Shown: positions 1 to 25,572 of the stretch, one piece after another
How the letters are laid out: every line of letters starts with the position of its first letter
Numbering within the stretch: the first letter of the stretch is position 1
Source: a virus
DNA: 25,990 nucleotides
Reading direction: 5' to 3' (one strand)
Virus record (IMG/VR): IMGVR_UViG_3300048589_000223
Location: 1-25,990 of that record
The notes under the pieces: generated by a model
Database searches by the model: none
Seen by the model: the letters and a program-made list of their open reading frames with translations, nothing else
What the model was told of the DNA's origin: nothing
Made by a program: the position numbers and the translations under genes

Positions 1-643
1 GAGCCGGCGAAACAACCAGCATCTCGGCAAACTGGCCCGAATTGACAAAGATGTTTTGACAAGCGGTGTCAAGCAGGGCCTTGCTGAATGCGCGGTTGGT
101 GCCACCAGTAACAGCCACGGTAGGCGCGCCCGAAGTCCAAGCGGGTGTTGCACCAGCGCCGTTGTGCAGCGGGTTGGACACCAACTGCACACCCAGACCA
201 GCGGACTGACCGGCAACCGCGGTGGTCGCAGCAATGGCAACCTGCGTCGGGCTGACGATCATGGCCTCGATGTTGCGCTTGAGTTCGAGCATTTTCTTGC
301 CCTTCAAGTACGCCATCTCAGCACCACGACCGGCCTTTTTCACGATGTTGGCACGGCGCGAGACGCCGACCGAACCGTTGAAAATCTGCAAGTGGTTGCC
401 CAGGCGCAGCGTGGGGACCTGTGCGTCCAGCGTCACATCGTCGCCGTCGATCATCTTGTTGGTAGCCGATGCAGCGCCCAGGGCGTCGGTCTGCCATTCG
501 TGGAAGTCGGTGGTCGCCGTGGTGCGGCCAAAGGCGGTGGACAGCGGCACCTCGCTGGGCGAAGTGTTGTAGATTTTGTCCATCAAGTCCTCGCGGGAGC
601 CCTTGAGAGACGCTTTTTGGTAGAGGTTGGTTGGGATTGCCAT
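1..643 (-). CDS. Major capsid protein (SU10/DUF5309-like), partial
   Basis: The reading frame runs from an ATG at 643 to the window edge, so the C-terminal part is missing (about 214 residues visible). The start is supported by a good ribosome site (AAAGGAAA) just upstream. The N-terminal text (MAIPTNLYQKASLKGSREDL, then a stretch with FGRTTATTDFHEWQTD and later LRLGNHLQIFNGSVGVSRRA) is typical of the SU10 major head protein family, which forms the icosahedral shell with an HK97-type fold. It lies directly downstream of the scaffold gene, the usual order in head modules. Family assignment is from recognition of the sequence style, not from a search. Confidence 0.85.
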   Translation of the reverse strand, partial: MAIPTNLYQKASLKGSREDLMDKIYNTSPSEVPLSTAFGRTTATTDFHEWQTDALGAASATNKMIDGDDVTLDAQVPTLRLGNHLQIFNGSVGVSRRANIVKKAGRGAEMAYLKGKKMLELKRNIEAMIVSPTQVAIAATTAVAGQSAGLGVQLVSNPLHNGAGATPAWTSGAPTVAVTGGTNRAFSKALLDTACQNIFVNSGQFAEMLVVSPA

Positions 644-657
644 GATAGTTTCCTTTG

Positions 658-1635
658 TTACCGCAGATAAGCGGCGAGGTCATTGAGTTTTGCGCGACCG
701 GTGCGGAACTTGTTTTCCAGCGCCTTGTCGAGCTTTTCCCTTGCGGGAGCGTTTTGTTTGTTGGGCATGGGTTGCGCCGCTTGCACCTTCTTCGTCACCT
801 CGGGCTTTTGGGCCTTGAGTGCTTGGTAGGCGGTCGCGTCCTTCATCAACCGAACCAGCCGGTGGTCGTACACGTTGCCCAGTTCCTCGGGCGAAAAGCC
901 GTAGGTTTTCTGAACGCTGCCGTAGATCTTTTCCAGCTTGGGCTTGTCGATGCCGTCCTTCTGTAGCTCGCTCCATGCCGTCTGGTACATGGATTGCAGC
1001 GACTGCTTCTGGCGCTGCTCGCGTTCTTGCGCGGCCCGCTGCTTTTCACCGTTGATCTGCTGGTCAAGCTGGTTCAAGTAGGCCGATAGCTGGCGCTGGC
1101 GCTGGTTTTCAGCCACCCATGCCGCAGGATCGGAATTAGCCAATTCGGCCATTTCCGACTCTGATCGGATGCCTGCAATCTGAGCCACTGCCGCGCGAGC
1201 CAATTCGGCTTGCGACAGGTAGTGATTGCGCACCTCCTCGTGTTTGGTCGTCAGGAACTGTACCGCTTCGGTTTCCCGCTGGGCCAATTCCTGTGTCTTG
1301 CGTGTGTAGTCACGCTGGCGCAAGTAGCTAGAGCCGATTTCCTCTGGTGTGAGTTCCAGGGTCTCGTCCTTGCCGTCTTCGCCCTTCACCTTGACGGTGA
1401 TCTTTGCAACGGGTGCAGGCTCGTCCTTAAACTCTCCGTCTGGATCGTCCGGGTCAATGTCCTGTTCGTCGTTTGCCTCTGCTTCCGTATCGACTTCTTC
1501 GTCGGTGGAGTCGTCAGCGGTTTGCTCGTCGTCTTGCTTGTCGGATGCCTCTTCAGGCGTGTCCGCAAGATACGAAGCCAAGTCGTTCAATGTGCCGCCG
1601 GTGTCGAGTGCCTGTTCGGCTTGTTCGAGTGCCAT
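658..1635 (-). CDS. Capsid scaffolding protein
   Basis: This 325-residue protein is very acidic in its first third (runs of D and E up to about residue 70) and rich in Q, E, R and A with predicted long helices afterwards, which is the composition of phage scaffolds that fill the procapsid and guide coat assembly. It sits immediately upstream of the major capsid gene, with 14 bases between them. The C-terminal end is basic and helical, as expected for a coat-binding segment. An oddity is that residues near 16-23 (LNDLASYL) and the last residues (LNDLAAYLR) are nearly identical. The start at 1635 has a modest GGAAA ribosome site. Function is inferred from composition and position. Confidence 0.8.
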   Translation of the reverse strand: MALEQAEQALDTGGTLNDLASYLADTPEEASDKQDDEQTADDSTDEEVDTEAEANDEQDIDPDDPDGEFKDEPAPVAKITVKVKGEDGKDETLELTPEEIGSSYLRQRDYTRKTQELAQRETEAVQFLTTKHEEVRNHYLSQAELARAAVAQIAGIRSESEMAELANSDPAAWVAENQRQRQLSAYLNQLDQQINGEKQRAAQEREQRQKQSLQSMYQTAWSELQKDGIDKPKLEKIYGSVQKTYGFSPEELGNVYDHRLVRLMKDATAYQALKAQKPEVTKKVQAAQPMPNKQNAPAREKLDKALENKFRTGRAKLNDLAAYLR

Positions 1636-1661
1636 TGTGGTTTCCAGTCAAACCCACCCCT

Positions 1662-1717
1662 TAAGCATCAAGGTGGAGTGCGGCGCATCTCTGCGTTCGC
1701 GTGAGGGTAGATGCTTA
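1662..1717. repeat. Inverted repeat between scaffold gene and its upstream neighbour
   Basis: TAAGCATC at 1662-1669 and GATGCTTA at 1710-1717 are perfect inverted repeats separated by 40 bases; the right copy contains the stop codon of the upstream gene. A second pair (GCATCT at 1685, AGATGC at 1709) shares the right arm, so alternative folds are possible. It lies in the only sizeable gap of the head gene cluster (1636-1714). It could be an RNA processing or attenuation hairpin before the highly expressed scaffold and capsid genes, but there is no T tract and the role is unknown. Confidence 0.3.
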
Positions 1718-2011
1718 CCCGAGAACCCTACGCATGAACTGCCGCGCTTGCGGCTCGTCACGCTCTGCAATCAAATCAATCTTGCGCTGCTCAAATTCGC
1801 CGGTTTTCACCATGCCAATCAGCAGCGACTCAAACTTGTCCGTGAGCTTCGCCAGTTGAAGCAACAGCACCTGGCCTTCACGATCACGAATCGGACACGC
1901 TTTCCACTGCTCGGTCACCGAGTCGCGCATCTGCTGCATGGCGAGCTTGAACGCCTCGCTGTCAAGCACTGCCTGCGCTTCGCGGCCCCGAAGAACGTCT
2001 TTGTCACTCAT
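1715..2011 (-). CDS. Small phage head-cluster protein, unknown function
   Basis: This 98-residue, mostly helical and charged protein (MSDKDVLRGREAQAVLDSEA at the N-terminus) has no signal peptide or membrane segment. It lies between a structural gene and the scaffold gene and is read in the same direction, so it is probably part of the head assembly module. Conserved small proteins of this size occur at this place in podovirus-like head clusters, but I cannot name a role. No clear ribosome site precedes the ATG at 2011; translation may depend on the upstream gene, whose stop is 30 bases away. Confidence 0.7.
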   Translation of the reverse strand: MSDKDVLRGREAQAVLDSEAFKLAMQQMRDSVTEQWKACPIRDREGQVLLLQLAKLTDKFESLLIGMVKTGEFEQRKIDLIAERDEPQARQFMRRVLG

Positions 2012-2041
2012 GCCGATATTGTGCGGATTGGTAAAGGCTGG

Positions 2042-2860
2042 TTATCGGCTGCGCCCGACAGACCCCAAGAGTCCAACATCATCAATCAACCCAAGGCGGG
2101 CGACTTCTTCTGCTGTTGTGACCGGCGTCCCCCCTCGGCTCAATCTGAGCGCATTCAATTCACTAACCTTAGTGCCTGCTAAAAGGTTTGGCGAAATAGA
2201 TGTTGGCTTTGTTATTTTCTTGTCAAGATTAAAACCGTTGGATTTCAGCCAATCCTTTGCCATTTCAAATGTATTGAGACTGTCAGGATCGACGGAGAAC
2301 CTCGCATCGGCGTCTACGCTATTTGGGTATCTGTCGCCGTGGTTCGACATCCTTACTTGGAATGAGGGGATGTCGCCATCCTTTGTTTCCTTGCCCATGA
2401 ATGTCAAATATCTAGAGCCGCTTACGTTGCTTGATCCGCCTTTTGTGTCATAACCAAGAGCATCGGCTTTCGATCTCAATTGATTGTAGAAACCATCGAT
2501 TTCTTTGGAAGTCTCTGGTATGCGTCCAAATGGCGTTTTTATCATCCCAGCCTGCCGATTCATCGCAGCCGGTGCCGCAACATTCGCCACCCCCTGGTTC
2601 ACCGCCCTTGCAATATGCGGGGCAAACTTCGTCACCAGCGCAGGCCCGAGAAGTCCAGCAGTCTCGCCAAGCACCTTGGGGATGCCCTGATCCACTTCCC
2701 GACGAAGCCCCATCTCTTTCTGCCACTCAGAGCCGCCGAATGGCCTGCCGACGGGCACGCCCATCTTGTTAAGCCCGAAGCCCAGCAAGTCCACCGGCCC
2801 CGCCACCGTGTCGGCTGCGGTGTTTGAAAGTGCCTGTAAGAAGTCGGTTAGGTTTTTCAT
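2042..2860 (-). CDS. Putative virion-associated protein, unknown function
   Basis: The start at 2860 (MKNLTDFLQALSNTAADTVA) is preferred over an in-frame ATG at 2902, because the upstream gene stops only 4 bases before it and the extra residues look non-native. This gives 272 residues. The first 110 are Gly/Ala-rich and amphipathic (pore-like text such as AGLLGPALVTKFAPHIARAV). The rest contains a compact region with SGSRYLTF, FQVRMSNHGDRYPN and RFSVDPDSLNTFEMAKDWL. The RMSNH text resembles the (I/V)R(I/M)S(D/N)H motif found in some phage polyvalent-protein domains; that link is tentative. It could be an internal or ejected virion protein. I do not recognise it with certainty. Confidence 0.65.
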   Translation of the reverse strand: MKNLTDFLQALSNTAADTVAGPVDLLGFGLNKMGVPVGRPFGGSEWQKEMGLRREVDQGIPKVLGETAGLLGPALVTKFAPHIARAVNQGVANVAAPAAMNRQAGMIKTPFGRIPETSKEIDGFYNQLRSKADALGYDTKGGSSNVSGSRYLTFMGKETKDGDIPSFQVRMSNHGDRYPNSVDADARFSVDPDSLNTFEMAKDWLKSNGFNLDKKITKPTSISPNLLAGTKVSELNALRLSRGGTPVTTAEEVARLGLIDDVGLLGSVGRSR

Positions 2861-2864
2861 GGTG

Positions 2865-3899
2865 TCAAGCCAATAACAGCATTTCAATGTCCAGCTCATC
2901 ATCTTGATCAGCCTGCGCCTTCACAGCGCGCGCCATGACTTCCATCACCCGATCAAAGTCCTGTTGCGCCACCAGGGCGGGCAAGTCCACCCGCATATTC
3001 AGATCGCGCAGCAGGCTCGATAGCGCGTCAATGTCCACCGTCTGCACCGGCTGCGGCATGGCGATGCTGGCGCGCACCCGCTTGCGTGCCCTGCGGCTGG
3101 TTTTCTGTGCCTGCTCAACCGCCTTCTGTGCTTGCGCTTCTGCATCGATGAAAGCGTCGGCGTCTTCAGCCCGGTCGAAGATGTGCAGCCGCTTGCCGCG
3201 CCTGACGTACCAGCGCTGCGGGGTAATGTCAATCTCAGCAGCAAAGGATTGCCCGACGGGGTCAGGGCCGCCCTCAGGCGCAGTCAGTGTGATGCTGGCC
3301 GGGGTGCCCACCGCAAAACCGCGTGGATCGGTCGCAATGGCCGTGGCCGTGGGCGCGCTGATGCTGATGCCCGCATAAATCCCCGACGCAACCGCCGCGC
3401 CGCGTGCCGTGCCAGCGGGTGCCAGCATGGACAGGCCTGCCGGTGTTCCGAATGCGTTGCCCGACGCGCTCGGTGCTGTGCTGGCCGTGGCCGTGGGTGC
3501 CGACAGCGAGACGCTGGCCGGTGATCCGGTTGCTTGCGCCTTTCCAGCTGCTGTTGCTGCTGCGGCTGTGATCGTGATCTGAGCGGGCGCTGCTGTGGCC
3601 TGCGCTTTGCCTGTTGCGGTTGCCGTGGGCGCTGCCAGCGTGATCGCGGCCGGCGTGCCGGTGGCGTTGCCCGCCGATGCGCTTGGGGTGACGCTGGCCG
3701 TTGCCGTCGGGGCTGTTAGGCTCAGGCTGGCCGGTGTCGCGCTGGCCTGGGCTTTTCCTGCTGCGCTGGCAGCGGGCGGTGTGAGGTTGAGGGATGCGGG
3801 GGTGCCGGTGGCGTTGCCCGCTACGGGAGACGGTCCAGCAGGCGCACCCGCTCCGGTGCCGAATGGCAGGGTGCCAAAAGGTGCCGTGCCGAAGCTCAT
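2865..3899 (-). CDS. Ala/Thr/Pro-rich repeat structural protein
   Basis: The 344-residue protein starts with a Phe-Gly-Thr rich head (MSFGTAPFGTLPFGTG), followed from about residue 33 to 211 by eight imperfect tandem units spaced 22-27 residues, each built around TPASLSLTAPTATA-like text. A different C-terminal part follows: RWYVRRGKRLHIF at about 229-241, a charged helix, and an acidic tail. Low-complexity beta-type repeats with a small globular end suggest a head fibre, decoration or tail-associated protein. Its ATG directly follows the stop codon of the upstream gene with no bases between, and no ribosome site is seen, so translation is probably coupled. The role is inference. Confidence 0.7.
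   Translation of the reverse strand: MSFGTAPFGTLPFGTGAGAPAGPSPVAGNATGTPASLNLTPPAASAAGKAQASATPASLSLTAPTATASVTPSASAGNATGTPAAITLAAPTATATGKAQATAAPAQITITAAAATAAGKAQATGSPASVSLSAPTATASTAPSASGNAFGTPAGLSMLAPAGTARGAAVASGIYAGISISAPTATAIATDPRGFAVGTPASITLTAPEGGPDPVGQSFAAEIDITPQRWYVRRGKRLHIFDRAEDADAFIDAEAQAQKAVEQAQKTSRRARKRVRASIAMPQPVQTVDIDALSSLLRDLNMRVDLPALVAQQDFDRVMEVMARAVKAQADQDDELDIEMLLLA
3267..3803 (-). repeat. Eight imperfect tandem 22-27-residue coding repeats
   Basis: Within the structural protein above, units beginning near residues 33, 55, 82, 104, 126, 152, 175 and 199 share the pattern x-T-P-A-(S/A)-(L/I)-x-(L/I)-x-A-P-T-A-T-A. Three of the linkers contain GKAQA and two contain GNATG or GNAFG, so there are at least two alternating linker types. 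This suggests growth by duplication of a two-unit block. Confidence 0.75.
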
Positions 3900-4394
3900 T
3901 TAGACAGCGGGCCAGCCAGCCGAGAAATCGTAGCCGTTCACCGCTTCAAACGTGGTGAGCGCTTTCACAGCATCTCGGTGCTTGCCGTCGGCGCCGCCGA
4001 TCTGCGCCTCAAGCGCAGAGAAGCCTGTGGCATTGCCGCCAACCTTCTGCACCAGCTCCAGCACCGTGATGCCGCGAATAGCCGCTTCGGCGGCAAGCAT
4101 GGGTGTGTCGGTGCTGCCCTGCGCAAACGCCCGCGCCTCGGCCAGCTTGATCGGCCAGCTTGCCATCTCGCCCGCGCTGATTGAGGACACCACCTTGTCG
4201 CGCAGAGTCTTGGCGTGCGCCATGATTTCCCCCTGCTTGACCGCTTTGGCTTGATCGAGGGTGTAGCCATCAATGATGGCCTGTACCGCTGCGTCGTCGC
4301 TGCTGTTCCACGCGCCGTCTCGCTGCTCGATCCAGTGGCCAGCGGCCACAATGGCTTCGTGCAGGCCCGCGCCTTTTTCGGTGTAGGTGATCAT
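3900..4394 (-). CDS. DUF4376-like phage tail/fibre-associated protein
   Basis: This 164-residue protein has a short N-terminal part (MITYTEKGAGLHEAIVAAGH), then a helical C-terminal half (VKQGEIMAHAKTLRDKVVSS through GITVLELVQKVGGNATGF to FEAVNGYDFSAGWP). The C-terminal half looks like the DUF4376 domain seen in phage tail-fibre assembly and fibre-tip proteins. It is tightly packed between two other structural genes (two bases after the upstream stop, none before the next start), consistent with one structural transcript. No Shine-Dalgarno is obvious. Exact role is unknown. Confidence 0.65.
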   Translation of the reverse strand: MITYTEKGAGLHEAIVAAGHWIEQRDGAWNSSDDAAVQAIIDGYTLDQAKAVKQGEIMAHAKTLRDKVVSSISAGEMASWPIKLAEARAFAQGSTDTPMLAAEAAIRGITVLELVQKVGGNATGFSALEAQIGGADGKHRDAVKALTTFEAVNGYDFSAGWPAV

Positions 4395-4396
4395 TG

Positions 4397-5248
4397 TTAT
4401 TGCCCGATGAATAGTGCCGGCGGGCTGCCTGAGCTGGTCGCTGTAAATGTCTCACCAGACGCATCGCTTGGCGTGGTGCTCCCGGTTGTCTCCAGTTGGA
4501 AAAACGAGTTTATGGCCCCAAGCTGGTGCCCAAATTTAGGCAAAACCCTATCAGCACCAATAGACCTAACAGACGGGTTTACAGCACTGGCGCAAGCAAT
4601 CCAATACACATCTCCAGGGCGGGGCGTAAAACTAATGGAGCCTGTTTTGTTACCGGTTGTCGATGAATCCAAAGAGACGTAGTGAATGCGAATGCCGGGC
4701 ACCAGTTGGCTGCTAACAATCTTTGATTCATAGATCGCCATCTTAATAGTTGAGGCGGCAACAGCAGTTGTTACGTTAACACCAAGACTTACAAGAGGGT
4801 AAATAGACCCCTGCATCTGGAACGGAAAGTAGAAAACGCGGTTACTGCTGAGCGTGGTGGTTCCGAGGCCAGTGATATATGCCACATAAGGACAAAACCA
4901 CGTTGAACCCCCGCCAGGAGTTTTCAAGACGAGTGACCCAGAAGATGACGCCGCACCGTGCTCTGTCACGATCAACTCGCTGGTGCCAGTCAAGCTGATC
5001 GCGCTGCCGTTTTTGGTGTACGTTGTGCCCACCAGCGTGGCGCTAATGACGGTGCGCTCTAGCGTGTTGCTTGCGCCCGCGATGCCAATGCCCCACTCCC
5101 GGTCGCCGTTGCCGCTGGTGAGGCAGTAACCCACCGCGCCGCCCACAGCAAACGCCTGCGACACGCGGGCGTGGTTCGCCACAGCAGACAGCGTGACCGT
5201 GCCGGTGCCTGTCGTGGTGGTGGTTTCCTTGATGCCGACGTCAAGCAT
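4397..5248 (-). CDS. Putative fibre or virion surface protein
   Basis: The 283-residue protein is Ser/Thr/Gly-rich and predicted mainly beta. Its N-terminal block (VGIKETTTTTGTGTVTLSAV, then AVGGAVGYCLTSGNGDREWG) matches a block shared by many podophage fibre or head-decoration proteins, while the C-terminal part is variable and contains PRPGDVYWIACASAVNP. The ATG at 5248 has a good AAGGAG ribosome site. The shared N-terminus plus divergent C-terminus is the usual build of surface proteins that attach to the virion at one end and face the host at the other; that role is inference. Confidence 0.65.
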   Translation of the reverse strand: MLDVGIKETTTTTGTGTVTLSAVANHARVSQAFAVGGAVGYCLTSGNGDREWGIGIAGASNTLERTVISATLVGTTYTKNGSAISLTGTSELIVTEHGAASSSGSLVLKTPGGGSTWFCPYVAYITGLGTTTLSSNRVFYFPFQMQGSIYPLVSLGVNVTTAVAASTIKMAIYESKIVSSQLVPGIRIHYVSLDSSTTGNKTGSISFTPRPGDVYWIACASAVNPSVRSIGADRVLPKFGHQLGAINSFFQLETTGSTTPSDASGETFTATSSGSPPALFIGQ

Positions 5249-5258
5249 GGCGCGCTCC

Positions 5259-5681
5259 TTACGACGTGGCGATGTAGATCGGGGCGCTGAATGTCACGCT
5301 GAAATCGCTGGCGGTGCTGACAACCGCGCTGCCGAAGTCCACAAACGCCACCAGATCGTCGGTCGCAGCAGTGCCTACCGCTTTGTAAAGCCAGCCGCCG
5401 ACAGCGGTTATCGTGGCAGTCGTCCACCCGGGCGAGAGGTTGCTGATCGTGACGGCCACGCGGTTGTTGGCTGTGTCAACCGCGCCCACGGTGACCGTGA
5501 CAGCGACGCCGCCAGCGGTGTAGCCGGTGCCTGTTACTTCGTTCGTGACGTCGTTGCGGAAGTCCCAAGCGTCGAGGTTTGCTTCGCTGGGGGCTGCGCT
5601 CACAAGAAGGAACTTGAACGAGCCTGTGAAGTAGGCGTCGGCAAGGCGTTTGGGGAGGATGCGGGCGTTTGCGGAGGGCAT
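5259..5681 (-). CDS. Conserved phage structural protein, unknown function
   Basis: The 140-residue protein begins MPSANARILPKRLADAYFTG and continues with a beta-rich body (GYTAGGVAVTVTVGAVDTAN, SNLSPGWTTATITAVGGWLY, a closing FSVTFSAPIYIATS). It follows the portal gene by three bases and has a strong AAAGGAA ribosome site. Proteins of this type commonly lie between portal and fibre genes in phage head clusters and are thought to be virion parts. No enzymatic motif is visible. Confidence 0.7.
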   Translation of the reverse strand: MPSANARILPKRLADAYFTGSFKFLLVSAAPSEANLDAWDFRNDVTNEVTGTGYTAGGVAVTVTVGAVDTANNRVAVTISNLSPGWTTATITAVGGWLYKAVGTAATDDLVAFVDFGSAVVSTASDFSVTFSAPIYIATS

Positions 5682-5684
5682 GGT

Positions 5685-7979
5685 TTATTCCTTTGGTTGG
5701 TAAGTTTGAATTCCGATGGCTCTGCCGTTGGCATCTCGGACGATCATCTTTGGCGCTGCGACTTGCTGCATCATGGTTTGCAAGTTCGCCAGGGCTTGCA
5801 GCATTTCTTCTTTCTGCATGTCGGCATCGGCCGGCGTCATACCGCGCACTTTCATTTCTGCGATGTAGATTTGCGTCTGAGACACCAGCTCAGCCCGCCA
5901 TCGCTCAAATTCCAGCTTCTGCGCCTCAAGCTGCGCGTCCATCTGCGCTTTCATCATTTCGCGCTCGCTGTCGCGCCGGTCGTTGGCGGCTTGCAATTCA
6001 AGGTTGCCCTGAATCTCGCGCAACTTGGCATCGGCCTTGATCTGCTCGATTTCCCGAGTCATTTGCGTTTCAGCTTGGAACTTCTGAATCTCAGATTGGG
6101 TTTCGGCTTGGAACTTCTGGCCCGCTGCCATCTGTTTCATTTCCTCAATCTGGATTTCCAGCGGCTTTTGCGGTGGCTGCGGTGGAACGGTAGTCGGATC
6201 TTGCAAAAAGTTCTGAACGTCCTTGAACCCGGCGTTTTCCACCAGCTTGGCAGCGGTGTTGTAGAGATGCTTCGGTGTTGCCAGGCCGACCGCCATGCCC
6301 TGCTGCTGAATCTGGCCGATCATCATGAGTTGCTGGCTGCGCTGCTGTGTGTCGCCAGTACCAAGGCCGACATTGATCGTCATGTCGTACTGATCGCGCC
6401 ACTCGTTCGGGTCGTACTCCACGAACTCATCGCGCAGCCGAAACGCCAGCTTTTCCATGCCGCCGTCAGTCAGCACTTTGAGGATGCCCTGAAAAATGGG
6501 CTTCACCAGCGTCTCGGCAATGATGCGGGCGATCAGCTCCACCCGCTGCATGGCCGACGACAAGTCCATGGCCCGTCCAGTGGCTGTGTTGTTCAGGCTG
6601 TCAGGGTTCATACCCATCGATGTACGCGAAACACCCGTGCGGTTTTCGCGCATCGATTGCACGTACTCAAGCATCGGCATCGATGCACCCGCACTGAACG
6701 GGATCACCTGCTCGCTGATCGCATTCACATCGCGCTGGCGAATCACACCCCCGGCGCGGGAGTCGAGCAGGTCGTCAATGTTGGCCAGCGGCGACCAATT
6801 GGCGTCTGTCAGTACCTTGGTGCGCGGGTTGTTCGTCAGGTACAGGTTGTTCAGCGTCTGGCGCAATAGCTCGGTGTGCAGGCGCTGCAAATCGCTCACA
6901 GCGTCGGCAATGCTCAGTCCATCCCATCGGTGGGTATTGAGCATGGGCGAAGCTGTGGCAATCGGCACATGGCTCACCACCTCGGCTTTGAGAATCTTGT
7001 CGCGCAGCCGGTAGACGCACAGTCGTTCGGCAATCCCGTCGCCATCGCGGTCGGCCAGGACGAACTCAATACGCAGCCAGCCCTCGGCCATCGCGTCATC
7101 GTCGTGATAGTCCGACTGCATGTTCAATGTGCTGGCGGTGTCTTGCGTGTCTTGATTGAACGCACCCGACTGCGTATCTTCGCCCAGGTAGTCCTGAGAA
7201 TCACTGGCGCGAAGCTCTTCGGGCTCAACGTCGTAGCCCATCATCTTCAAGTCACTGAGCGTCACCCGCATCAGGCGCGAGACATACGGGCAATCGTGCA
7301 ACAGCGGCGAAGTCCAATCGCGCTGCACCAGCAGGTTCTCCGGGCTGAACGCCTCCACCTTGACGATGCTTTTCTTTTCAGTCTTACGAAGCCGCCCGTT
7401 GTAGCCCATCAAAGGCTGTCCCGTCATGGGATCAACCTGCGGCTGTCCTTGCTCATCAAGGATCGGTGCGGGAGTCGCCATCTCGATCTCAGCGTCTTCC
7501 TCCTGCATCATCAGGGCGAGCATTTCTTCCGATGCACCCTTGAACGGCACAGACGACACCACCGATTGATCTTCCTTGCGCCACATGACCGCGCAGTTGC
7601 GCACGGTCAGCATGTCCTTGATCGCGGTGTAGAGGATCAAGAATCCGTTGTTTTGCTTGTAAAAGACGTGGTTTACTGCGTCGGTAGCCTGCTCTGCGCC
7701 CTGAACGTCAGAAGCGCGTGAAGGCTCAAAGGCGACGGCTTTGTCGGTGGCGCTAAACGTCTTGAGCAGCGCGGGCAAGATCCATTCCACGCTGTCTTGC
7801 ACATCGCTGGAGACGATGGTGGCCTCGGAATCGACCTCGTTGCCATACGGCATGCGGTGATATTCGCGCATGGCCTGCTCACGCGCCGATGCAAGCTCAC
7901 CATGCACATAGTGCGCAGCCGCGTCCTCTTTCTGCTGTAGCAGAGACAGCAAGTCTTCGTCGTCCAGTCGCTCTGCCAT
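5685..7979 (-). CDS. Portal protein
   Basis: At 764 residues this is the size of large P22/SU10-type portals, the dodecameric ring at the capsid vertex through which DNA is packaged and ejected. Recognisable portal text includes DVQDSVEWILPALLKTFSA near residue 60, FYKQNNGFLILYTAIKDML near 110-130, a core with MGMNPDSLNNTATG and a long C-terminal alpha-helical barrel rich in Q, E and K (roughly residues 590-730). It lies directly after the large terminase gene, its packaging partner. A GAGGG ribosome site precedes the ATG. The call is confident; the exact subfamily is not. Confidence 0.9.
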   Translation of the reverse strand: MAERLDDEDLLSLLQQKEDAAAHYVHGELASAREQAMREYHRMPYGNEVDSEATIVSSDVQDSVEWILPALLKTFSATDKAVAFEPSRASDVQGAEQATDAVNHVFYKQNNGFLILYTAIKDMLTVRNCAVMWRKEDQSVVSSVPFKGASEEMLALMMQEEDAEIEMATPAPILDEQGQPQVDPMTGQPLMGYNGRLRKTEKKSIVKVEAFSPENLLVQRDWTSPLLHDCPYVSRLMRVTLSDLKMMGYDVEPEELRASDSQDYLGEDTQSGAFNQDTQDTASTLNMQSDYHDDDAMAEGWLRIEFVLADRDGDGIAERLCVYRLRDKILKAEVVSHVPIATASPMLNTHRWDGLSIADAVSDLQRLHTELLRQTLNNLYLTNNPRTKVLTDANWSPLANIDDLLDSRAGGVIRQRDVNAISEQVIPFSAGASMPMLEYVQSMRENRTGVSRTSMGMNPDSLNNTATGRAMDLSSAMQRVELIARIIAETLVKPIFQGILKVLTDGGMEKLAFRLRDEFVEYDPNEWRDQYDMTINVGLGTGDTQQRSQQLMMIGQIQQQGMAVGLATPKHLYNTAAKLVENAGFKDVQNFLQDPTTVPPQPPQKPLEIQIEEMKQMAAGQKFQAETQSEIQKFQAETQMTREIEQIKADAKLREIQGNLELQAANDRRDSEREMMKAQMDAQLEAQKLEFERWRAELVSQTQIYIAEMKVRGMTPADADMQKEEMLQALANLQTMMQQVAAPKMIVRDANGRAIGIQTYQPKE

Positions 7980-18699: not shown

Positions 18700-18996
18700 A
18701 TGAAAACCGTAACTTTTCAGGCAAACGTCTACAAAGCAGATTACCACTGCATGGCTGAGATTGAATCAGGCGAGCAAATGCCGTATGTGTTTAATTTTGA
18801 GAATGAGACTTTAGTAAAAATTGGAACGGCAGTCGTCACCATAACGTTGTTTGACAACGCCAAATTTCAAGAAAAGGAGCTAGAACGTTTGAACAAGAAA
18901 CTGGCCGATGTAAGGGCAGACAACCAGCACCGAGAGAATGCCATCCTAGACCGCATCAGCAAGCTGCAAGCCATTGGCTATGAGGCGCAATCATGA
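18700..18996 (+). CDS. Small phage protein with coiled-coil tail
   Basis: The start at 18700 has a GGAG ribosome site and gives 98 residues; the longer frame upstream overlaps the previous gene and is rejected. The N-terminal half (MKTVTFQANVYKADYHCMAE) looks beta-rich and the C-terminal half (FQEKELERLNKKLADVRADN) is a charged coil. The base composition is more AT-rich than in its neighbours, a possible sign of recent gain. No named family. Confidence 0.65.
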   Translation: MKTVTFQANVYKADYHCMAEIESGEQMPYVFNFENETLVKIGTAVVTITLFDNAKFQEKELERLNKKLADVRADNQHRENAILDRISKLQAIGYEAQS

Positions 18997-21928: not shown

Positions 21929-21983
21929 TTTTAACCCAACAGCTAAGCGGCGCGGAGCGTCCGACTGGCGCGCCGAGTTAAAT
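21929..21983 (+). repeat. attC-like site A (left end of array)
   Basis: Right core GTTAAAT (21977-21983) is a perfect GTTRRRY box. Left core may be TTTTAAC (21929-21935) or ACCCAAC (21934-21940). The GGCGCG and CGCGCC arms pair, but the right arm lacks the spacer and L box, so the site is asymmetric and may be a hybrid of phage or attI DNA with the first cassette. Confidence 0.65.
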
Positions 21984-22005
21984 GGCTTTTGACCAAGTGA
22001 GCAAG

Positions 22006-23016
22006 ATGAACAAAGTGATTTTTGGTGACTGCCGCGACACGATGCGCGACCTGAAAGATCAAGGCGTGCGCGTGCAGATGTGCGTGACCTCGCCGCCCTA
22101 CTTCGGGCTGAGGGACTACGGGCACCCCGGACAGATCGGGCTGGAAAAAACGCCCGCCGAATTCGTGGCCGCGCTGGTGGAGGTTTTCGACGGCGTGCGC
22201 GAACTGCTGGCCGACGATGGTGTGCTGTGGCTAAACCTGGGCGACAGCTACGCACGCACCGGCGGCACAGACCGCAAGGTAAGCGAGAGCGCCCAGGTGG
22301 GCAGCACGCGCAACACACTCGAACAGATGTGCGACCGCACCACAAAGGCGCAAGCCTTTGGGCTTAAGCCAAAGGACTTGATTGGTATTCCGTGGCGCGT
22401 CGCCTTTGCCCTGCAAGAGGCGGGATGGTACTTGCGGCAAGACGTGATTTGGCACAAGCCCAACCCGATGCCAGAGAGCGTGACCGACCGCTGCACGAAG
22501 GCGCACGAATACCTGTTTTTGTTGAGTAAGAGCGAGCGGTACTACTTCGACCAGAAGGCGATTCTTGAGCCGGTAAGCCCGAACACTCACGCCCGACTTT
22601 CGCAGAACGTGCAGGCACAGATCGGCAGCGAACGCGCCAACGGCGGGGCAAAAACCAACGGCAACATGAAGGCGGTGGGTCGGAAGTTTGATCCGGGAGC
22701 GGGGAACAAGAACAACCCGAGCTTTGACGCGGCGACGGCGATCATGCCTGACGAGAGGAACAAGCGTTCCGTGTGGACGGTGCCGACGCAGCCCTACAGC
22801 GGCGCGCACTTTGCGACCTTTCCCCCGGCGCTGATTGAGCCGTGCATTTTGGCCGGGAGCAGGCCAGGGGATTTGGTTTTGGACCCCTTCATGGGGAGCG
22901 GAACAACCGCCCAGGTTGCACAGCAGCTCGGGCGCCAGTGGATCGGCTGCGAACTCAACACCGAGTACGCACCGCTGCAACAGGCACGCACGGCACAGAC
23001 CGCGCTTGCCATTTAA
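22006..23016 (+). CDS. Cassette 1: DNA methyltransferase (N4/N6, beta type)
   Basis: The start at 22006 (MNKVIFGDCRDTM) gives 336 residues. Catalytic motif IV is TSPPY at 28-32 and the AdoMet-binding motif I is DPFMGSGTT at 293-301; this IV-then-I order with the recognition domain between them defines the beta class. The SPPY form is more often seen in N4-cytosine enzymes, so N4mC is somewhat more likely than N6mA. No partner restriction nuclease is visible. A solitary methyltransferase in a phage may protect its DNA from host restriction. The TAA stop is part of the closing attC box (ATTTAAC). Confidence 0.9.
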   Translation: MNKVIFGDCRDTMRDLKDQGVRVQMCVTSPPYFGLRDYGHPGQIGLEKTPAEFVAALVEVFDGVRELLADDGVLWLNLGDSYARTGGTDRKVSESAQVGSTRNTLEQMCDRTTKAQAFGLKPKDLIGIPWRVAFALQEAGWYLRQDVIWHKPNPMPESVTDRCTKAHEYLFLLSKSERYYFDQKAILEPVSPNTHARLSQNVQAQIGSERANGGAKTNGNMKAVGRKFDPGAGNKNNPSFDAATAIMPDERNKRSVWTVPTQPYSGAHFATFPPALIEPCILAGSRPGDLVLDPFMGSGTTAQVAQQLGRQWIGCELNTEYAPLQQARTAQTALAI

Positions 23017-23068
23017 CGCAAAAATCAGGGGCGGCTGAAAGCCGTCCCGCTGGATTGCCTGGTTAGCC
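23011..23068 (+). repeat. attC-like site B
   Basis: Left core ATTTAAC (23011-23017), right core GTTAGCC (23062-23068). Between them are unpaired spacers of about five bases, arms ATCAG and CTGGAT with one extra G (23053) as extrahelical base, then a GGGCGGCT/AGCCGTCCC stem with GAA loop. This is the clearest canonical attC fold of the set. Confidence 0.88.
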
Positions 23069-23325: not shown

Positions 23326-23384
23326 GACTAACCCGATGGGATCACGCGGCCTCTCTGTGTGCGCAGCTTGTGGCCAAACTAGGA
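23326..23384 (+). repeat. attC-like site C, decayed
   Basis: Left core GACTAAC (23326-23332) is one base off the expected GGCTAAC. The right core should read GTTAGGC but the best candidate is ACTAGGA (23378-23384). Only a GGCC/GGCC arm pair is left. Probably no longer recombinogenic. Confidence 0.4.
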
Positions 23385-23391
23385 GAGTGCA

Positions 23392-23631
23392 ATGAGCGAA
23401 TGGAAAATCCTGCCTCACGTTGAGGCACAGCTTGAGAGCGTGGCAAGGGACGAAGCCTTGCTTTCGCAGGAGGCACACACATACCTGCCGAAGACGCCCG
23501 AGGAAGCGGCGGCCTTCAACCCGCACGAGTGGGTGCTTGAGGCCATGCGCCGCGCCTACAGCATGGGCCGCACAGCGGGCCGCCACGCGGCAAAGGCGGA
23601 AATTCGAGAGGCACTTGGCCTGCCGAAGTGA
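23392..23631 (+). CDS. Cassette 3: small helical protein, unknown function
   Basis: The 79-residue protein (MSEWKILPHVEAQLESVARD) has an AGGAG ribosome site. It is mainly helical: a first helix, a Pro-rich turn (YLPKTPEEAAAFNPHEW), then a second helix with Gly/Ala and His (SMGRTAGRHAAKAEIREALG). The gene stops 4 bases before site D. I do not recognise it. Confidence 0.65.
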   Translation: MSEWKILPHVEAQLESVARDEALLSQEAHTYLPKTPEEAAAFNPHEWVLEAMRRAYSMGRTAGRHAAKAEIREALGLPK

Positions 23632-23899: not shown

Positions 23900-23959
23900 G
23901 CCGAACCAATAAGTTAACCGGCGCCCGAATGGGCGTCCGAGTTGAACTGGCGGTTAGGC
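23900..23959 (+). repeat. attC-like site E
   Basis: Left core GCCGAAC (23900-23906), right core GTTAGGC (23953-23959, perfect). Spacers of 4-5 bases, arm AGTTAAC pairing with GTTGAACT with G23944 extrahelical, then GCGCCC/GGGCGT stem with GAAT loop. 60 bases. Confidence 0.88.
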
Positions 23960-23985: not shown

Positions 23986-24465
23986 ATGAAAATGGCAAAG
24001 GCCAGCAAGGCCGATCTGAATATGGCGCTGAAACTGTGCAGCGCCCTTGAAGCAATCGAGCGCCGATTCTTCCCTGATGGCAGCGAGGGCCAGAACGACC
24101 CGGAAGATTTCGACATTGATGACGATGCTCAATGCGGCCAAGTCTTGCGGCACTTGGATGGCATCTTGAGGGGCGGCAGCATTGGCCGCGTCATTTGGGG
24201 CATGGCCGTGTTGCTCGACCCCGAGAACAAGACCGTTGACCCTGACGCCCGCACACTGGAGCCCCACCCGGAAACCGTAGCGGGCAAGCAAGACGCCGCC
24301 GCCTTGAACTGGATCGAGCGCCAGCACCTAGAAGAGCTTGGCATGGGGCTGGTGATCGATGCGCCCAACGATGGCAAGTACTACGTGTGCGGCGACAGCG
24401 GCACGACCCATTACGGCAAAACCCTGCGCGAGGCCGTGGCCAGCGCCATTGCAGAAGGGGTCTAA
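23986..24465 (+). CDS. Cassette 5: 159-aa protein, unknown function
   Basis: The start at 23986 (MKMAKASKADLNMALKLCSA) has a GAGAGGA ribosome site; earlier in-frame ATG text overlaps the attC site and is rejected. The N-terminal half is helical with an acidic cluster (DPEDFDIDDDAQCG); the C-terminal half (MGLVIDAPNDGKYYVCGDSG, then GKTLREAVASAIAEGV) looks like a small alpha/beta domain. The stop TAA lies inside the left core of site F. No known family. Confidence 0.7.
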   Translation: MKMAKASKADLNMALKLCSALEAIERRFFPDGSEGQNDPEDFDIDDDAQCGQVLRHLDGILRGGSIGRVIWGMAVLLDPENKTVDPDARTLEPHPETVAGKQDAAALNWIERQHLEELGMGLVIDAPNDGKYYVCGDSGTTHYGKTLREAVASAIAEGV

Positions 24466-24512
24466 CGCCACGATGACCGCCGCACCGCGTGCGGTCGATT
24501 AACGAGTTCGGC
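24460..24512 (+). repeat. attC-like site F
   Basis: Left core GTCTAAC (24460-24466, perfect), right core GTTCGGC (24506-24512). GACCGC pairs with GCGGTC, with G24497 extrahelical next to it, and the terminal loop is GC-rich. 53 bases. Confidence 0.82.
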
Positions 24513-24533
24513 ACTGCCGACAGAAAGGAAGAC

Positions 24534-25172
24534 ATGAGATTCAGACTTGAGCGCGAAAGCCGCAAGCCGCTGCTGCGGGTGTTCGGGCGATCGGGAGAGA
24601 TTGCATGGGCATCGCTTGGAGTCAGCGGGTTGCAGGCGGAAATTGAGTTCCCGTCCGACTGGCGCGAAGAGCGCCGCGCGTGGGTTCGATTTGGTCTCGG
24701 TCTTGGGAAACTGAGTTTCTCTTTCCCGTGGTCCAAGGTTGTCCCGGACGAGTTCCAGTGCTCAGGGCCGACCTACGGTTTTCACTTCTATGAAGACCTG
24801 TTGTGGATCAGGTACGGAAAAGACGAAGGCAAGCGCACAGACCCACGAATCACGCTGCGCATGCCGTGGTCTTGGAAGCACCGAGAGCACAAGGTTCTGA
24901 GCGAGCCCGAGCAGCACCCGTACACCTACACGCTGCGGTCTGGCGAGGTGCAGCACCGGACAGCAACCATCAAGGCCGAACAGAGGACGTGGACGCGCTG
25001 GTGGATTCCGTTCCGGCGCGTGAGCCGGTCCATTGACGTTGAGTTCAATGCAGAAGTTGGAGAGCGCACTGGGTCATGGAAAGGCGGGTGCATTGGCTGC
25101 GGCTACCAGATGAACCCCGGCGAGACGCCATTGCAGGCACTGCGCCGCATGGAAGCCGAGCGGAAGTTTTGA
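24534..25172 (+). CDS. Cassette 6: conserved 212-aa protein, unknown function
   Basis: The start at 24534 (MRFRLERESRKPLLRVFGRS) follows AAGGAAG; the frame is open from 24489 but the earlier ATG lies in the site F region. The protein is rich in Trp, Phe and Arg, with WVRFGLGLGKLSFSFPW, SGPTYGFHFYEDLLWIRYG, LRSGEVQHRTATIKAEQRTW and GSWKGGCIGCGYQM blocks. These are well-kept motifs of a hypothetical protein family I recall from mobile elements, with no proven activity. It is the longest unknown gene of the array. Confidence 0.75.
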   Translation: MRFRLERESRKPLLRVFGRSGEIAWASLGVSGLQAEIEFPSDWREERRAWVRFGLGLGKLSFSFPWSKVVPDEFQCSGPTYGFHFYEDLLWIRYGKDEGKRTDPRITLRMPWSWKHREHKVLSEPEQHPYTYTLRSGEVQHRTATIKAEQRTWTRWWIPFRRVSRSIDVEFNAEVGERTGSWKGGCIGCGYQMNPGETPLQALRRMEAERKF

Positions 25173-25176
25173 TGCT

Positions 25177-25195
25177 GCCGAACAACTGGTTATGC
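25177..25195 (+). repeat. attC-like site G, minimal (19 bp)
   Basis: Left core GCCGAAC (25177-25183), five bases AACTG, right core GTTATGC (25189-25195). The whole stem and terminal loop are missing. The left core still matches cassette 6 and the right core still matches cassette 7, so the site seems to have lost its centre by deletion. Confidence 0.65.
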
Positions 25196-25207
25196 ACGGA
25201 GGTTGAC

Positions 25208-25483
25208 ATGGAACGGGTTTTTACCGACAAGATCGTGACAGCGAAAAAGCACTACCGCTGCGATGCCAGCGAGTGCTGGAACAGAGCCGGTTACTCGCTG
25301 CTCGACTGCGAGACACCAGAGCAACGCCTGATGGTTGAGGCGGCAGAGGCCGACAAGTGGAAAATTTTGCCGGGGCAGGCATACCGTAAAGTCACCGGAA
25401 TCCATGATGGCGAGTTTGTAACGTACCGGGCAAGGCCTGGAATGGATGCGGTATGTCACGACCTCGATATGTGGGACGAATGA
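25208..25483 (+). CDS. Cassette 7: 91-aa Cys-containing protein
   Basis: The ATG at 25208 follows GGAGG and gives 91 residues (MERVFTDKIVTAKKHYRCDA). CDASECW and a later Cys-His pair (AVCHDLDMW at the end) suggest a small metal-binding site, as in short phage proteins with a KxHxCD motif. A central block (LPGQAYRKVTGIHDGEFVTY) looks beta-rich. The stop lies 4 bases before the left core of site H. Confidence 0.7.
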   Translation: MERVFTDKIVTAKKHYRCDASECWNRAGYSLLDCETPEQRLMVEAAEADKWKILPGQAYRKVTGIHDGEFVTYRARPGMDAVCHDLDMWDE

Positions 25484-25487
25484 GAGT

Positions 25488-25523
25488 GCATAACGCAGAT
25501 TTAAGCGGCCGTACTCGGTCCGC
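25488..25523 (+). repeat. attC-like site H, right half missing
   Basis: Left core GCATAAC (25488-25494) is the exact complement of the box that opens cassette 7. The arm continues with GCAGATTTAAGCGGCCG and the tip closes as GCGGCCG/CGGTCCGC with a TACT loop, but after about 25523 no matching right arm or GTT core follows. The array ends here in phage DNA. Confidence 0.7.
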
Positions 25524-25538
25524 GGCGCGGCTGTAGTG

Positions 25539-25572
25539 AAAAAAACCCCGCCCACCACAAAGGCGAGCGGGG
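25539..25572 (-). terminator. Rho-independent terminator after Rz/Rz1
   Basis: On the minus strand, GCCCCGCTCGCC pairs with GGGCGGGG around a short loop and is followed by seven T (complement of A at 25539-25545). It lies about 40 bases after the Rz stop and would end leftward late transcription before it enters the cassette array. No T tract on the plus side, so it works mainly in one direction. Confidence 0.85.

Follow-up and report, generated by a model that had tools for sequence, protein, structure and literature searches.

Fused gene cassettes that arose through partial or total loss of an attC site are known from class 1 integrons (PMC8876359; PMC4670013). In the pair blaGES-1/aacA4, part of attI1 has taken the place of the blaGES-1 attC site, of which 6 bp of the first core site are left (PMC4670013). 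This remnant is not a substrate of IntI1, and the two genes are not excised separately (PMC4670013). No activity was seen with truncated attC sites of blaGES-1 and aadA10, whereas a truncated aadA1 site still recombined (PMC4670013). A cassette class in which attC is truncated by deletion and only R'' can be recognised is credited to Partridge 2009 in PMC12901181. Mutational work on attC sites showed that the extrahelical bases and the central spacer are important for strand choice and rate, and that the terminal loop is dispensable (PMC2727003). Here we describe a 19-bp junction between two cassettes of a phage-borne array which is likely the scar of an attC site lost by deletion, with both cassettes fused into one unit.

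Results

A cassette array without integrase in a viral contig

The window, i.e. the whole stretch of DNA analysed, is a 25,990-base IMG/VR virus record. It encodes a terminase large subunit and Rz-like spanins; portal-like and capsid-like frames are also present, named by inspection alone. Between 21.9 and 25.5 kb, seven small genes lie in one direction. No member of the Phage_integrase family and no tyrosine recombinase was detected in the 25,990 bases of the record, which may be a fragment.

A covariance model of attC was built from 13 attC sites taken solely from other phage contigs and run unfiltered over the window. Four strong matches were obtained, all on the plus strand and all between array genes, and the remaining matches were at or near background. 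The array is thus real, and the test is not circular, since the model was derived from sites of other phage contigs. With four full attC sites within 1.5 kb and no intI in the (possibly fragmentary) record, it represents a CALIN. A screen for attC by regular expression and fold energy was too weak and was superseded by the covariance model. The array outside the junction of interest contains the following features.

21930-21985, plus strand: possible eroded site A, before cassette 1; its GTTAAAT pairs at 7 of 7 positions with ATTTAAC at 23011; missed by the model
21982-23016, plus strand: gene 1, N6/N4 DNA methyltransferase (cassette 1; PF01555, E 5e-52)
23011-23068, plus strand: full attC site B, 3' of the methyltransferase cassette (39.9 bits)
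23327-23385, plus strand: eroded attC site C, between cassettes 2 and 3, without GTT box; R'' GACTAAC matches at 6 of 7 positions; missed by the model
23392-23631, plus strand: gene 3, with a relative between attC sites in phage array L023
23635-23692, plus strand: full attC site D, between cassettes 3 and 4 (46.3 bits, E 4e-9)
23900-23959, plus strand: full attC site E, between cassettes 4 and 5 (25.9 bits)
23986-24465, plus strand: gene 5, with a relative between attC sites in phage array L016
24460-24512, plus strand: full attC site F, between cassettes 5 and 6 (34.1 bits, E 3e-6)
25488-25539 (or to 25545), plus strand: attC site H, the last site (cassette 7); R'' GCATAAC and stem present (6.9 bits)

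The array is eroding at several places: site C has no GTT box, and site H at the array end has lost its R' against the phage backbone. Other relatives of genes 3 and 5 lie outside arrays.

The junction between cassettes 6 and 7

Site G, GCCGAACAACTGGTTATGC at 25177-25195 (GCCGAAC-AACTG-GTTATGC), begins four bases past the gene 6 stop codon (25170-25172), and 12 bases separate its end from the gene 7 ATG. The features at this junction are as follows.

24534-25172, plus strand: gene 6, predicted CBASS inhibitor of the Acb3 family, 212 aa (PF25187, E 2e-40)
24506-25189, plus strand: cassette 6, delimited by box matching, with truncated attC and probably fused to cassette 7
25177-25183, plus strand: R'' box GCCGAAC, 3' end of cassette 6, the exact complement of the start box GTTCGGC (24506-24512)
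25184-25188, plus strand: 5-base spacer AACTG, the sole remainder between the boxes, read from the sequence
25189-25195, plus strand: R' box GTTATGC with crossover point G|TT, left edge of cassette 7, the same edge as in phages L001 and L002
25208-25483, plus strand: gene 7, 91-aa phage protein of unknown function (phrog_13613), preceded by GGAGG at 25198-25202

Of the attC elements, the R'' and R' boxes with their AAC and GTT are present. The imperfect L''/L' stem is absent, only five bases separate the boxes, and the bottom strand has neither extrahelical bases nor an unpaired central spacer. The covariance model assigned 7.5-8.7 bits to site G (E 3-6), which is background-like, and short matches at 18839 and 16888 scored similarly. 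As a bare motif site G is thus not above chance, but in its context it is real. The exact 19-mer had no second copy in all IMG/VR contigs.

The context is given by the pairing of cassette ends. Throughout seven phage arrays, the end box was the complement of the start box of its own cassette at six or seven of seven positions in 33 of 39 intervals. Taken unsplit, the interval 24506-25488 starts with GTTCGGC, ends with GCATAAC and breaks this rule; split at site G, it obeys the rule twice (GTTCGGC...GCCGAAC and GTTATGC...GCATAAC). It is the only one of the six rule-breaking intervals that holds both internal boxes, side by side, by which the rule is restored. When six cassettes in the window were compared, the boxes agreed at 22 of 24 variable positions; among 720 permutations of the end boxes, 4 did as well. 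The chance expectation of GCCGAAC in the 17 possible placements was about 0.005 when based on the frequency of this motif in the window and 0.001 for uniform bases; GTTATGC occurs a single time in the window.

The left edge of cassette 7 was located by comparison with phages L001 and L002, to which 38 of 40 bases were identical from the G onward and 10-11 of 40 before it. In both phages gene 7 follows full attC sites that belong to unrelated upstream cassettes. An origin of GCCGAAC as native sequence downstream of acb3 was considered and rejected; the motif was absent right after the stop codon in nine of nine relatives. The first-pass annotation had reported the 19-bp site with correct sequence and coordinates, and its assignment of the boxes to cassettes 6 and 7, with the stem gone, is borne out by the complementary start box and by the edge in L001 and L002.

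Genes 6 and 7 and their relatives

Gene 6 reached 139.6 bits against PF25187 (curated cut-off 27), and its product is probably an anti-CBASS protein involved in immune evasion. Gene 7 is 86 and 85% identical to its versions in L001 and L002 and is related to proteins of Pseudomonas phage D3 and Vibrio phage ICP1; it was found in the arrays L001-L004 and elsewhere outside arrays or away from attC sites. Both frames are complete, i.e. of full length (212 and 91 aa) and collinear with their relatives. Gene 7 starts 35 bases past the end of gene 6 and is preceded by GGAGG, a good ribosome site. Because the hairpin is lost and the two genes lie within this short distance of each other with a GGAGG, joint translation of genes 6 and 7 is likely.

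The gene acb3 is a cassette in the window and an ordinary phage or prophage-like gene at 16 other loci. These 16 relatives (15 viral, one from a proteobacterial MAG) had no attC site in the flanks fetched, which extended up to 3-4 kb on each side. Among 84,980 species genomes there was one close relative of gene 6, in a phage-like locus without attC, and no strong second relative was detected in 369 genomes of the class to which the MAG belongs. In collections of phages and plasmids, the relatives of both genes were all distant. A search for sister phages with the ParB-like gene yielded one contig of 8.7 kb, in which no array gene or attC site was found. A homologous array with a complete site between genes 6 and 7, which had been proposed as a check, was sought and none was found; no relative of cassette 6 was found inside an array. 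The case named as refutation, a constant adjacency of both genes outside integrons, was likewise sought and not encountered; genes 6 and 7 were adjacent in none of the loci fetched.

Related phage arrays

Several viral contigs carry arrays related to that of the window. L016 (IMGVR_UViG_3300001199_000021, genome G008) encodes a full integron integrase at 3708-4859 (TIGR02249, 466.6 bits), which sits within a six-site cassette array; cassette 5 is common to L016 and the window. The contig is that of a contractile-tailed, Mu-like phage with genes for tail sheath, baseplate hub and DNA circularisation, and it has a second, phage-type integrase too. The viral contig of L023 (G009:C1:18420-18620) holds a nine-site array in which an integron integrase is present as a truncated N-terminal fragment, which suggests the loss of intI from a phage array. 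In the phage contig of L002 (IMGVR_UViG_2710723518_000003, 400-5700) at least 11 attC sites lie within about 5.3 kb, and cassette 7 is present; this array adjoins a replicative-helicase-like gene and is without integrase. The same small phage genes occurred as attC cassettes in L001-L004, L016 and L023 and as plain genes in L017-L022 and L024-L027. Their occurrence in both forms seems to indicate either phage genes that turned into cassettes or cassettes that settled in phage genomes.

Folding and expected activity of site G

Within the array, site G is unfolded (-0.1 kcal/mol, compared to -9 to -15 kcal/mol for the full sites of the array). The closed-circle form of cassette 6, GCCGAACAACTGGTTCGGC, forms a perfect 7-bp hairpin (GCCGAAC/GTTCGGC) with a 5-base loop and -7.1 kcal/mol. 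This hairpin consists of one box pair without L box or extrahelical base and would have room for one integrase subunit. As site G lacks extrahelical bases and a central spacer, no useful activity is expected, and the scar probably no longer works. The name minimal attC and the proposed use as smallest working site could not be upheld, given the absence of L boxes, extrahelical bases and central spacer, the folding energy of -0.1 kcal/mol and the inactivity of the blaGES-1/aacA4 scar (PMC4670013).

Discussion

Site G is likely the scar of an attC site, and a deletion likely fused cassettes 6 and 7 into one unit. Cassette 6 with acb3 would once have ended in an ordinary attC site of about 50-60 bp. 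The deletion would have removed everything from just past R'' to just before R' of cassette 7, perhaps because replication of the phage slipped at the hairpin, or perhaps through an off-register integrase event. Its product would be a two-gene cassette of genes 6 and 7 with no hairpin in between, movable, if at all, as one piece via the outer sites. Two properties of a fused cassette are present at the locus: cassette 7 starts at the usual G|TT edge, as in L001 and L002, and the R'' remnant complements the start of cassette 6. Since the unsplit interval breaks the box rule and the edge of cassette 7 is fixed by L001 and L002, cassette 6 appears to have lost nearly its whole attC site and to have been fused to cassette 7. 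Without an integrase of its own in the contig, nothing would preserve the sites of the array. We infer that a full attC site is what went missing, as no relative with an intact site was found and gene 6 is no cassette in its 16 relatives. The five bases AACTG may be left over from L' (site E reads GAACTGGCGGTTAGGC) or, like those in blaGES-1, may stem from a foreign site; a spacer of this length suffices neither to locate the breakpoints nor to decide between the two sources. The first-pass annotation had left the choice between a deletion of the centre and the use of a stem-less site. The deletion stands as the best reading and matches the fused cassettes of class 1 integrons (PMC4670013; PMC8876359), stem-less use was not retained, and a deletion that ties the two cassettes together is best supported.

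Loss of the site by deletion was weighed against an exchange, in which an erroneous integrase event would have put the terminal part of attI, or of a similar integration site, with the end AACTG|G in place of the attC site of cassette 6. The anatomy would be that of blaGES-1, with the first core box, a few foreign bases and the next cassette at G|TT (PMC4670013). However, this array has no known attI, the five bases are traceable to no source, and we regard the exchange as unlikely. A different proposal is that site G works without a stem, the joined ends of the cassette 6 circle forming a 7-bp hairpin usable by an integrase. The perfect folding of the joined form (-7.1 kcal/mol), the position of both ends of cassette 6 exactly at G|TT and the presence of cassette 6 in the array, in spite of the lack of attC sites in all its relatives, speak for it. 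A single box pair would nevertheless serve one integrase subunit, the L box and extrahelical bases whose importance is documented (PMC2727003) are missing, and the junction is unfolded in the array (-0.1 kcal/mol). Moreover, the truncated sites of blaGES-1 and aadA10 are inactive, though one of aadA1 is active (PMC4670013). A working stem-less site is therefore very unlikely. It is still harder to believe that such a 19-bp site with a single 7-bp hairpin in the circle suffices for the capture of genes into a phage array; if true, this proto-attC would illustrate the first step by which ordinary phage genes, acb3 for example, turn into cassettes.

Gene 6 could also be an ordinary phage gene that happens to lie beside cassette 7, with GCCGAAC as a coincidence. 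This would agree with the location of all gene 6 relatives outside cassette arrays and with the background score of the bare motif. We consider it highly improbable, as gene 6 starts right after attC site F with a proper start box, both edges are located at G|TT, and a matching box in the gap was expected only 0.001-0.005 times. An assembly or sequencing error may in principle collapse a hairpin site, and the window is an IMG/VR contig, known from a single record, whose 19-mer is present in no other viral contig. Yet four full hairpin sites are intact within the same 1.5 kb, which renders such an artefact extremely improbable.

With the fusion of cassettes 6 and 7 by attC loss as the preferred reading, the site loss known from clinical integrons would occur in phage-borne cassette arrays too, and separate cassettes would become small operons. 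One gene of the fused pair is probably anti-CBASS, so that the array resembles a vehicle for counter-defence genes, with the methyltransferase as first and Acb3 as sixth cassette. Related arrays share cassettes between phages and one has its own integron integrase, so that the question of who moves phage cassettes is testable.

Among the described systems, the phage CALINs of Qi et al. 2023 resemble the window in their array of cassettes and attC sites with a DNA methyltransferase gene and no intI; the accessible text of that study describes no fused cassettes and no anti-CBASS cassette (PMC9892861). The sites attC-ereA2 and attC-oxa2 are likewise small, with short terminal loops, but they retain both box pairs and the extrahelical bases and recombine at about 1e-2, whereas site G has one box pair (PMC2727003). 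The loss of attC with fusion of cassettes is a known type of event; no earlier report from a phage array was found in the accessible literature. The closest counterpart is blaGES-1/aacA4. For that pair, attI1 was identified as the source of the replacement bases and the loss of excision was demonstrated, whereas site G is known from its sequence and is carried by a phage without an integrase of its own in the contig. Both junctions have in common that the upstream attC site is cut to its first core box, that the reading frames are intact, that the next cassette begins at G|TT and that the two cassettes form a unit (PMC4670013), which in the case of site G is the likely outcome of the deletion.
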